This document shows, piece after piece, positions 18,337 through 21,260 of a DNA stretch of 64,000 nucleotides. The position numbers and the translations under genes are program-made. Under the pieces are notes generated by a model. The model did no database searches, was not told the DNA's origin, and saw only the letters and a program-made list of their open reading frames with translations. The DNA comes from Halomarina litorea (lineage in GTDB: Archaea > Halobacteriota > Halobacteria > Halobacteriales > Haloarculaceae): positions 2,501,655 to 2,565,654 of the forward strand of contig NZ_CP100448.1 in NCBI RefSeq assembly GCF_024227715.1. The letters are read 5' to 3'. Each line of letters begins with the position of its first letter. Positions within the stretch are counted from its first letter, which is position 1.

Positions 18337-19404
18337 ATGGACGTCGAACCCTTCGCCCTCGAACGGTGGTTCGCCCGGTTCGAACACGACGCCGACATCA
18401 TGCTCGCCGAGAGCGGCATCCGCAGTCTGGACGCCGCCCGGTTCGACCGCGACCCCGGCGAACTGGGTTACGTCATCCCGACGAACGGCGACCCCGCCTT
18501 CCGCGAGACGATAGGCGACCGCTACGACCGGCCCGCCGACGAGGTGCTGTTCACCTGCGGGGCGCAGGAGGCGAACCTGCTCGCCTTCCTCGCACTCGTC
18601 GGGCGGGGCGACCACGCCGTCGTCGTCACGCCCACCTACCAGTCGCTCGTGAGTCTCCCCGCCGCGTTCGGGGAGGTGACCACCGTCGACCTCACCCCGC
18701 CCGAGTGGGACCTCGACGTCGAGGCGGTGAAGGAGGCGATTCGCCCGGAGACGGGCGTCGTCGTCCTCAACAACCCGAACAACCCCACCGGCAAGTACCT
18801 CGACGAATCGACCGTGGAGGCCGTCTACGACGTCGCGGCCGACGCGGGCGCGTACCTCCTCTGTGACGAGGTGTACCGCCTGCTCGCGGAAGCGCCCCTC
18901 CCGCCGGTCGCCTCGCTCGGCGAGTTCGGCGTCTCCACCTCCAGCGTGACCAAGTCGTACGGACTGGCGGGACTCCGGTTCGGGTGGCTGGCGGGGCCGC
19001 GGGAGGTGGTCGACGCCGCGTGGAACTGGAAGGACTACACGACCATCTCGCCCTCGCAGTTCGGCCAGCACCTCGCCCGGCAGGCGATAGAGAGCGAGAA
19101 CGACATCCTCGCGGTCAACCGCGAACTCGCCGCCGAGAACCGCGCCATCACCCGCGAGTGGGTCGAACGACACGACCTCTCGTGGTTCGATCCCGTCGGG
19201 GTCAACGGGTTCGTCACCGTCCCCGAGGGGTTCGACTCGGGCGAGTCGTTCTGTCGGCACGTCGTCGAGGAGACGGGCGTCGTCCTCGCGCCCGGGGAGG
19301 CGTTCGGCCACCCCGACCGCTTCCGCATCGGGTTCGGCCTCGCCACCGACGAACTGGAGGCGGGACTCGCCCGCGTGGACGCCCTCCTCGCGCGTCACGG
19401 CTGA
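18337..19404 (+). CDS. PLP-dependent aminotransferase, class I/II
   Basis: A 355-residue fold-type I aminotransferase. The cofactor-binding features are NNPNNPTG (residues 145-152), CDEVYR (176-181) and SVTKSYGLAGLR with the Schiff-base Lys206. A C-terminal small domain carries FRIGFGL. It resembles the aspartate/aromatic aminotransferase branch, but the substrate is not identifiable. The gene follows the ABC1 kinase by 41 bases on the same strand; any functional connection is unproven. Confidence 0.88.
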   Translation: MDVEPFALERWFARFEHDADIMLAESGIRSLDAARFDRDPGELGYVIPTNGDPAFRETIGDRYDRPADEVLFTCGAQEANLLAFLALVGRGDHAVVVTPTYQSLVSLPAAFGEVTTVDLTPPEWDLDVEAVKEAIRPETGVVVLNNPNNPTGKYLDESTVEAVYDVAADAGAYLLCDEVYRLLAEAPLPPVASLGEFGVSTSSVTKSYGLAGLRFGWLAGPREVVDAAWNWKDYTTISPSQFGQHLARQAIESENDILAVNRELAAENRAITREWVERHDLSWFDPVGVNGFVTVPEGFDSGESFCRHVVEETGVVLAPGEAFGHPDRFRIGFGLATDELEAGLARVDALLARHG

Positions 19405-19518
19405 ATCGTCGGTCCACCAGACGACCCGCTAGTCGGTCCCTACCACCGGCGAACCGGCCAATCAGCCCACCGATAACAAAACCAATAGAAGAGAGACATT
19501 CATACAGAGGAGAGATAA

Positions 19519-19692
19519 ATGAGCGCACCAGAAATCGACGACGGGGAGGAGGAAGGCGAGTTCGCGGCGTTCCAGACCGACACGGGTGACATCGTCATCT
19601 ACGACGTACGGCCGGGCGAGGACACGGAGGCGTCGGGCGCGTGGATTCGCATCCACCCGGACGACTGCGTGGACCTGACCGAAGCGCAGTAG
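19519..19692 (+). CDS. 57-aa acidic miniprotein (DUF7331-like)
   Basis: An ATG at 19519 opens a 57-codon gene with a GGAG purine run eight bases upstream. The product is acidic in its first third, then has GDIVIYDVRPG and AWIRIHPDDCVDL. This pattern (acidic head, a Gly-Asp-x-Val-Ile-Tyr-Asp strand, Ala-Trp-Ile strand) recalls the haloarchaeal DUF7331 miniprotein family, whose function is unknown. G/C at third codon positions supports coding. The AT-rich leader at 19475-19518 contrasts with its surroundings and probably contains the promoter. Confidence 0.6.
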   Translation: MSAPEIDDGEEEGEFAAFQTDTGDIVIYDVRPGEDTEASGAWIRIHPDDCVDLTEAQ

Positions 19693-19772
19693 GCGAGCGG
19701 TCACACGCACGACGTGGCGGGACAGACGAGAAGTGAGTTGCCTCCGAGGCTCTCGACTGGTGAGGGTGACGT

Positions 19773-20007
19773 TCGCGCCGCGAAGCGGCGCGATTCCCCG
19801 GACGTGAGCGAGCGAACGCGAGTGAACGTCCGGCCTTTTTAGTCCCATTGCGAGACGCTTCGCGTCTCGCTGGCTCCCAGAAGCCTCGTTACCAGAACGC
19901 TCCGCGTCCTGGTTGCCAGCGGGACCGGCGGTCCCGCGCGCTTACTGAGTGCGGTTTTTCGAGGAGTGGTGTCCACATCGGACGCCGGAGGCGTCCGCGG
20001 GGACACC
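19773..20007. repeat. Array of short-loop hairpins upstream of the eIF5A promoter
   Basis: Five compact inverted repeats with three-base loops follow one another: 19773-19793 (9 bp, loop GAA), 19850-19870 (9 bp, TTC), 19891-19913 (10 bp with one A.C mismatch, TCC), 19919-19937 (8 bp, GGC) and 19979-19997 (8 bp, GGA). The last is enclosed by a further 7-bp stem (19968-19974 with 20001-20007). A sixth hairpin with a longer loop and T-run is listed separately. Several stems share a GACGC/GCGTC or GGAC/GTCC core. No coding sequence overlaps, and the eIF5A TATA box lies just downstream. The 373-base gap from 19693 to 20065 holds only these structures and that promoter. Confidence 0.8.
19798..19840 (+). 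terminator. Hairpin plus T5 run
   Basis: An 8-bp stem (ccggacgt at 19798-19805 with acgtccgg at 19826-19833), a 20-base loop, and CC then five T (19836-19840) resemble an intrinsic terminator. It lies 106 bases after the 57-aa gene and may end that transcript; archaeal termination mainly needs the T-run. Confidence 0.45.
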
Positions 20008-20033
20008 CGACGACGAAAAAAGTGGTTCCGTAC

Positions 20034-20041
20034 CGTTTATC
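20034..20041 (+). promoter_or_regulatory. TATA box of the eIF5A-agmatinase operon
   Basis: The element cgtttatc is centred about 28 bases before the eIF5A ATG, predicting a leaderless transcript. A small inverted repeat, gggttgaaaccc (20048-20059), overlaps the predicted start region. Confidence 0.55.
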
Positions 20042-20065
20042 TGGACAGGGTTGAAACCCGGACGT

Positions 20066-20440
20066 ATGGCGAAACAGCAGACCGAGGTCCGCGACCTGCA
20101 GGAGGGGAGCTACGTCATGATCGAGGACGTCCCCTGCGTCATCAACTCTTACAGCACGGCGAAGCCGGGCAAGCACGGCAGCGCGAAGGCCCGCGTCGAG
20201 GGCAAGGGCGTCTTCGACAGCAAGAAGCGCAACTTCACGCAGCCGGTCGACGCGAAGGTGTGGGTCCCCATCATCGACCGCAAGCAGGGTCAGGTCGTCT
20301 CCGCCAACAACGGCGAGATGCAGGTGATGGACCTCGAGACGTACGAGACGTTCACGATGCGCGTCCCCGACGGCGTCGACGCCGCCAACGAGGACGAGAT
20401 CGAGTTCCTCCAGTACGAGGACCAGCGGAAGATCGTATAA
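20066..20440 (+). CDS. eif5a: Translation factor aIF5A (eIF5A homologue)
   Basis: A 124-residue full-length aIF5A, which binds the ribosome and promotes peptide-bond formation at difficult sequences and termination. The N-terminal domain has the modification loop [13 protein letters not shown]; Lys36 (in PGKHG) is the residue converted to deoxyhypusine or hypusine. The C-terminal OB-fold domain ends [15 protein letters not shown]. The stop is followed after one base by the agmatinase start, so both are co-transcribed. The modifying enzyme, deoxyhypusine synthase, is encoded at 25.0 kb. Start ATG 20066 is supported by the conserved [17 protein letters not shown]-terminus. Confidence 0.95.
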
Positions 20441-20441
20441 C

Positions 20442-21260
20442 GTGTTCCCCGGGGCCGTCGCGGACCGCGAGGACGCGCGCTACGTCCTCCTCGGCGCGCC
20501 CCTCGACATCTCGACGACGTTTCAGCCGGGCACCCGCTTCGGCCCCGATCGGGTCCGGCGGTTCGCCCGGACGTTCGACGACTTCGACCACCACACGCGG
20601 AGTCACTTCACCGACCTCGCGGTCCACGACGGCGGCGACCTGCGGGCGTGGGACGACGCCCGCGAGTACCTCGACTTCCTGGAGGGGATGGTCGGCGACG
20701 CCCGGAGCGACGGGGCGGTCCCCCTGTTGCTCGGCGGCGAACACACCGTCACGGTCGCGGGCGTTCGTGCCTGCGACCCCGACGTGTTCGTCTGTCTCGA
20801 CGCCCACCTCGACCTGCGCGAGGAGTACGACGGCAACCCGCTGAGCCACGCCACCGTCACCCGTCACGCCCTCGACGTGGCCGAGGAGGCCGTTGTCCTC
20901 GGGGCGCGGACGGGGAGCGAGGCCGAGTGGGACCGGGCGAGCGAGGCGGACGTGACCGTCGTCCCGCCCGGCGAGGTGGGGGAGTGGACGCCCGACTTCG
21001 GGGACCGATCGGTTTACCTGAGCGTGGACGTCGACGGTGCGGACCCCGCGTTCGCGCCGGGGACGGGGACGATGGAGCCGTTCGGTCTCTTCCCCCGCGA
21101 GATGCACCGCGTCGTCAGAGCCGTCGCCTCTCACTGCGTCGGGTTCGACGTCGTGGAGGTCAACGACCGGGACGACGGGCAGGCGGCGACACTGGCCGGA
21201 AAGCTCCTGCGGGCGTTCGTCTTCGCGCACGCGGCCGGTGGAGACGACAGCGGGCGCTGA
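20442..21260 (+). CDS. speB: Agmatinase/ureohydrolase (SpeB family)
   Basis: A 272-residue arginase-family hydrolase with a dinuclear manganese site. Ligands lie in GGEHT (about residues 98-102), DAHLD (about 118-122) and SVDVDGADPAFAPG (about 192-205). It hydrolyses agmatine, or an agmatine-derived guanidino group, to release urea. In haloarchaea this enzyme is linked to hypusination: agmatine, not spermidine, is thought to supply the aminobutyl group on eIF5A, and the guanidino group is removed later. Its GTG start lies one base after the eIF5A stop, supporting that link. Start GTG 20442 fits the family N-terminus ARYVLLGAPLD. Confidence 0.9.
   Translation: MFPGAVADREDARYVLLGAPLDISTTFQPGTRFGPDRVRRFARTFDDFDHHTRSHFTDLAVHDGGDLRAWDDAREYLDFLEGMVGDARSDGAVPLLLGGEHTVTVAGVRACDPDVFVCLDAHLDLREEYDGNPLSHATVTRHALDVAEEAVVLGARTGSEAEWDRASEADVTVVPPGEVGEWTPDFGDRSVYLSVDVDGADPAFAPGTGTMEPFGLFPREMHRVVRAVASHCVGFDVVEVNDRDDGQAATLAGKLLRAFVFAHAAGGDDSGR

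Follow-up and report, generated by a model that had tools for sequence, protein, structure and literature searches.

A dispersed palindromic cassette with conserved structure at gene ends in the archaeal order Halobacteriales

The eIF5A gene of Halomarina litorea is preceded by a dense array of hairpins, which raises the question of whether this array belongs to the expression of eIF5A or represents an element of its own, and what it might do at this position. The array is located in the window, i.e. the whole stretch of 64,000 nucleotides of contig NZ_CP100448.1 that was analysed here, and all features are described on its forward strand. A sequence-only reading had listed five triloop hairpins and a long-loop hairpin with a T5 run at positions 19773-20007, all of which were confirmed by direct reading and a repeat search. 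The comparison with other genomes revealed a dispersed cassette, of which the array is a composite copy.

Layout of the hairpin array in the window

Comparing the copies allowed us to divide the cassette into the modules M0, M1 and M2. Module M0 consists of two hairpins and ends in the first T-run. Its hairpin A (19773-19793) has a 9-bp stem and a GAA triloop, with the counterparts GCGTCCGCGCG..CGCGGTTCACCG in other genomes, and hairpin B (19798-19833), for which counterparts were likewise detected in other genomes, combines an 8-bp stem CCGGACGT/ACGTCCGG with a 20-nt loop and is followed by T5 at 19836-19840. Module M1 (19846-19952, ends approximate) is an insert that was found in genomes of the same genus only. 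It comprises a first hairpin of 9 bp with a TTC triloop (19850-19870) and a branched part, in which a partial closing stem (19874-19880/19945-19951) encloses two inner hairpins, one with eight of nine possible pairs and a TCC triloop (19892-19912) and one with 8 bp and a GGC triloop (19919-19937). The core of module M2 (19955-20025), assigned by a match to the covariance model R1 and by covariation, starts with the second T5 as left foot (19955-19959) and continues with the segment CGAGGAGTGG (19960-19969), a stem (19968-19974/20001-20007), an 8-bp inner hairpin with a GGA triloop (19979-19997) and the motif CCCGA (20006-20010), before it ends in the right foot, A6 at 20016-20021 followed by GTGG. 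The feature thus extends to approximately position 20025, since the last of the listed hairpins is the tip of a larger imperfect palindrome T5...A6-GTGG. Model R1 matched the window only once, at 19942-20028, with 49.5 bits and an E-value of 1.9e-9. Moreover, the predicted RNA fold of positions 19765-20035 (271 nt) reached -144 kcal/mol, compared with -114.9 ± 5.4 kcal/mol for dinucleotide shuffles (z -5.4), none of which attained the energy of the real sequence; the corresponding value for the reverse strand was z -6.1.

The promoter region of the eIF5A gene (20026-20042) directly follows the cassette and contains the TATA-like sequence TTTAT at 20036-20040, which has a similar counterpart at the same position before eIF5A orthologues. 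The gene itself starts with the ATG at 20066, and the domain assignments IF-5A and agmatinase were confirmed. The array is therefore located upstream of the eIF5A promoter, as had been proposed, but the implied link to this gene did not hold, because the array was missing from the upstream gaps of 28 out of 29 other eIF5A orthologues, with a rudiment in the remaining one, which belongs to a genome of the same genus. For these two reasons, i.e. the location upstream of the TATA box and the rarity at orthologues, a 5' leader or riboswitch of eIF5A was rejected. On the other side of the array, an ORF of 57 amino acids (19519-19692), which was regarded as coding on account of its score in an in-house model, is located between an aminotransferase gene and the array. 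The deduced protein is acidic, uncharacterised and without a match in Pfam or NCBIfam, and the ORF would represent a gene whose transcript runs into the array.

Modular composition and distribution of the cassette

The usual order of the cassette is M0, the first T5, an 8-nt linker, the second T5 and the M2 core, with the M2 consensus TTTTT-CGAGGAGYGG-(variable hairpin)-CCCGACGANG-AAAAA-gg-TGG, and the unit of M0 and M2 has a size of about 165 bp. In 145 of 170 copies the first T-run precedes the second one by 7-11 nt, mostly by 8 nt, irrespective of the orientation of the neighbouring genes. The copy in the window is an exception, as M1 separates its two T-runs. The number of inner hairpins in the branched part of M1 varies between copies; M1 occurs between the T-runs, exclusively in Halomarina genomes and in either orientation relative to M2, and might constitute a small module of its own that is mobile or exchangeable. 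At the loci L005, L006, L007, L008, L015, L029 and L030 of the same genus, M1 (the ATTGYGAGACGC hairpin followed by GGCTCCCAG...) is reversed relative to its neighbours. Two further variants of the architecture were observed: L253 carries two tandem M2 units at a distance of about 100 nt, whose flanks are repeated and whose inner stems differ, perhaps due to a local duplication, and L290, behind the korB gene of genome G007, has extra hairpins within the M2 core, as if a module had been inserted into a module.

This composition also corrects the view that the hairpins were derived from one element, since at least three modules with different distributions are present. The GACGC/GCGTC-type cores shared by several stems had been taken as a sign of one ancestral stem; they provide no evidence of it, as the stems of the homologous hairpins at other loci are unrelated in sequence.

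When the own genome was searched with the array sequence, two additional long copies with 87% identity and numerous short fragments were obtained, and more were found in relatives. In total, 12 M2 copies with E <= 0.01 were detected in the own genome, all of them on the largest contig. The M2 sequence pattern matched 43 of 60 genomes, with a handful of matches in the reversed control, and model R1 detected M2 in 51 of the 60 related genomes, with up to 51 copies each; these copy numbers are lower bounds, as scoring was restricted to the best candidates of each genome. In a phylum-wide draw, R1 recognised M2 in 19 of 24 genomes of the order Halobacteriales and in none of the 124 genomes outside this order. 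The carriers of the longest form include Haloarcula, Halogranum, Halosimplex, Halorientalis, Halovenus, Halohasta, Haloglomus and Halalkalicoccus. Related copies of the array are thus present in the own genome and across the order, in line with the initial suggestion of a repeated structured element. No similar DNA was detected on plasmids by blastn.

Covariation and conserved mismatches in the M2 core

The structural conservation of M2 was assessed in two sets of copies. In the seed set of 52 copies, 93.3% of the pair cells were paired, and 95 double-sided changes were counted, compared with 23 ± 3.7 in shuffles and at most 31 when the partner was slid by 1-3 columns. Since the fetched hits had been chosen partly by eye, this set leans towards palindromes, and a second set was therefore taken from 60 further stretches around R1 hits, mostly in other genomes, which provided 60 distinct copies. 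Here, 95.9% of the cells were paired, with 170 double-sided changes against 54 ± 5 in shuffles and no more than 41 in the slid registers; these numbers overstate independence, as related sequences were compared in an alignment that had been fitted to the model, yet the contrast to the slid registers remains large. The outermost CCA/TGG stem, which was not subject to selection by eye and is separated from the core by loops, covaries as well. These data clearly indicate that the palindrome between the T-runs is conserved as a structure, whereas the stem sequences change freely, and they reveal very strong compensatory variation of the kind that the sequence-only reading had named as a check.

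The positions between the M2 stems that do not form Watson-Crick pairs hardly vary and consist of G.A and A.G mismatches, which are present in 52 of 52 seed copies at the inner pair of positions and in 47-48 of 52 at the outer one, where some genomes (e.g. at L009) have ordinary pairs instead. The pair between the T-run and the following CG is G.T in 21, A-T in 8, G-C in 6 and A.C in 0 cases. Over the whole M2 structure the excess is weaker, with 35 G.T versus 15 A.C, of which 8 occur at one position, and the inner hairpins (8 G.T versus 4 A.C) display no clear excess. Tolerance of G.U on the strand with the G.A mismatches favours a folded strand as the acting form, either RNA or DNA, between which it does not decide.

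Location of the cassettes at gene ends

The neighbourhood of 170 copies was evaluated by means of a simple in-house coding model for genes and aragorn for tRNAs. Convergent neighbours were enriched (85 copies) and divergent ones depleted (13 copies), where the four arrangements are otherwise about equally frequent. Among the 126 copies towards which the right neighbour is oriented, 84 have the stop codon or tRNA 3' end of this neighbour at a distance of 0-15 nt from the A-run, with a mode of 6 nt, and the close share may even be higher, because some tRNA neighbours listed at about 100 nt appear to be misplaced. For comparison, 659 gene ends lacking M2 were evaluated, of which 2.7% are followed by a run of at least four T that starts at a distance of 5-9 nt and 6% by one that starts within 15 nt. 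The anchored neighbours include PAN2, PhoU, KorB, NuoI, the ribosomal protein L40e and an FtsZ-family protein scoring below the FtsZ equivalog cut-off, and the same families recur across genera.

Three sites were compared between genomes. At the end of korB, the T-run, the hairpin and the A-run are located within a few bases of the stop codon in about ten of the genomes examined, which represent five genera, and the stems share little sequence; other genomes are devoid of the cassette at this site. At the end of nuoI, the cassette occurs in both orientations, depending on the genome, and the stems are unrelated. The third site adjoins hisH and a small conserved gene, and here several genomes of the same genus and one other genus possess related structures, which are absent elsewhere. 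The variable presence and orientation at these sites suggest that cassettes have been gained, lost and flipped while the architecture was kept. The small protein of 115 amino acids adjoining hisH (L002, 1684-2032; orthologues L196-L225) has a match in 58 of 59 genomes of the family but none in NCBIfam, and it may be worth annotating.

Comparison with known structures and repeats

A scan of positions 19400-20500 with cmscan yielded chance-level matches to Rfam only, and a known Rfam RNA family was accordingly rejected; the open-licence literature, which was searched for palindromic repeats at haloarchaeal gene ends, likewise yielded no description of the cassette. A kink-turn and a bulge-helix-bulge were also dismissed for the M2 core, as their spacing, judged by hand, does not fit. 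The attC sites of integrons resemble the cassette in forming a hairpin with conserved unpaired positions and a variable stem shortly after a gene end. This analogy was abandoned, since the neighbours of the cassette are chromosomal core genes and an unsystematic look revealed neither cassette arrays nor a link to an integrase.

Archaeal T-tract terminators likewise have intergenic T-runs just past gene ends (PMC7237163; for Methanococcus, PMC8716108), which in the cassette are located on the sense strand of the 84 closely spaced neighbours, and the 3'-end map of Haloferax reports hairpins near some ends (PMC7237163). The cassette differs in that T-runs on both strands flank a covarying core within a modular repeat, and in that its termination activity is putative. 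Bacterial REPs of the GTAG and CGTC types are similarly palindromic, dispersed and extragenic, located downstream of genes and mostly in convergent or tandem arrangement, and those of the CGTC type are, as the cassette, without a known transposase (PMC3733652). However, REPs have a size of 20-40 bp and a terminal unpaired GTAG or CGTC tag, whereas the cassette comprises about 165 bp with internal T-runs and freely changing stems; the CGTC of M2 is located inside the bottom strand, as the complement of GACG, in the G.A/G-C region and not as an end tag. With the additional lack of a link to a Y1 (RAYT) transposase, an assignment to these REPs was rejected, and the literature terms searched revealed no REP in haloarchaea.

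The SMRs and PATEs of Haloquadratum walsbyi are, like the cassette, small, non-coding, repeated, palindromic and transposase-free haloarchaeal elements (PMC3119063). Terminal inverted repeats characterise SMRs, and M2 taken alone has inverted ends (T-run/A-run, CCA/TGG). SMR copies of one type are commonly more than 95% identical (PMC3119063), whereas most cassette copies are far below this value and near-identity was observed only within genome G151. Furthermore, A-type SMRs target PATEs and IS605-type elements (PMC3119063), in contrast to the gene ends occupied by the cassette. The ends of PATEs are related to IS605 elements (PMC3119063); for the cassette, only the Y1 link was compared, and the copy number did not correlate with Y1 transposases.

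Possible functions of the cassette

The cassette is a genuine repeat that has a conserved structure and is associated with gene ends. The two-sided T-runs, the location at 3' ends of protein and tRNA genes and the two orientations at nuoI fit a bidirectional transcription terminator and insulator, which, judging from sequence features, is probably its role. M0 and the second T-run would act as terminators of rightward transcription and the A-run, which reads as a T-run in the opposite direction, as that of leftward transcription, such that RNA polymerase arriving from both sides would be released. As the structured core lies beyond the first T-run from either direction, it might act on (antisense) RNA that has read through the gene boundary, either as a final barrier or as a signal for processing; the same location makes a part of the core in termination itself less than obvious, which counts against the terminator reading. 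The copy in the window, whose right end touches the eIF5A promoter region, would terminate the transcript arriving from the small gene upstream and protect the promoter of eIF5A, in agreement with transcription insulation as one of the options considered initially. In Haloferax, termination occurs at T-stretches, and one tested hairpin terminated 59% of the transcripts (PMC7237163), and in Methanococcus, aCPSF1 acts together with U-tracts (PMC8716108). Further points against a terminator are that about one third of the copies facing a convergent neighbour are not near its end, that 13 of the 170 copies are located between divergent genes, that many orthologous gene ends are devoid of the cassette and that the gene calls stem from an in-house model. 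A more tentative extension is that M2 might constitute a new class of structured nucleic acid, the folded strand of which would be recognised by a dedicated factor for the termination or cleavage of RNA reading through gene boundaries; the recognised form would be an antisense-facing hairpin of RNA (or single-stranded DNA) that contains conserved tandem G.A pairs together with a bulged pyrimidine.

A mobile or copied repeat similar to SMRs or REPs, spreading as a unit and reaching gene ends by chance, is a possible though rather doubtful explanation, in which the structure would be what a mobilising enzyme recognises and effects on transcription would be secondary. Genome G151 contains nine near-identical copies with sharp ends (L257-L265), which imply that the cassette spreads as a unit in this genome, either by transposition or by gene conversion. 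These M0-M2 units, some of them with a further repeated stretch upstream, are homogeneous and apparently the result of a recent expansion. Common stems among related copies of one genome, the variation in presence and orientation at orthologous gene ends and the resemblance of M1 to an insert in two orientations also agree with mobility, and the strand asymmetry of the hairpin would suit an enzyme reading single-stranded DNA. However, Y1 transposases do not explain the spread, as Y1_Tnp is absent from the own genome and its Spearman correlation with the copy number over 44 genomes was -0.02, and two strict patterns found no match in viral contigs. Moreover, the sharp spacing of 6 nt to the stop codons and tRNA ends of core genes and the retention of the cassette at korB in several genera despite exchanged stems point to selection at the site, and a T-run that could serve as a target of this kind is rare at genes lacking M2. 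A mobile element that was later recruited for a function would also be conceivable.

The absence of selection on structure is far less plausible still. The perfect pairing of GC-rich palindromes might be maintained by gene conversion or by quasi-palindrome template switching, with which the loop inversions (TTC/GAA) and the genome-typical stems would agree, but template switching would erase the G.A mismatches that are retained in nearly all seed copies; it is also at odds with the covariation of the loop-separated outermost stem and with the highly non-random position at gene ends. A signal for stabilisation or processing of RNA 3' ends, with leaky T-runs and hairpins that mainly protect or trim messages, is unlikely as well. 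Hairpins at the 3' ends of highly used genes would be in keeping with such a signal, and REPs, located mainly downstream of coding regions, are in many cases thought to act as RNA (PMC3733652); yet the T-run precedes the hairpin for the anchored gene, and the neighbours include tRNAs, which do not need a message stabiliser.

Termination at crowded gene boundaries is an unsettled question in archaea, and hairpins have so far appeared in Haloferax as an occasional addition to T-tracts. The cassette, recognised by model R1 in most of the haloarchaeal genomes searched and located a few bases past core genes and tRNAs, provides a defined set of sites for studying the function of a structured gene end, its possible blocking of antisense transcription and the factor that recognises it. 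The cassette represents a clear natural case in which a structure has been kept at the same gene end in different genera while nearly all of its stem sequence was replaced.
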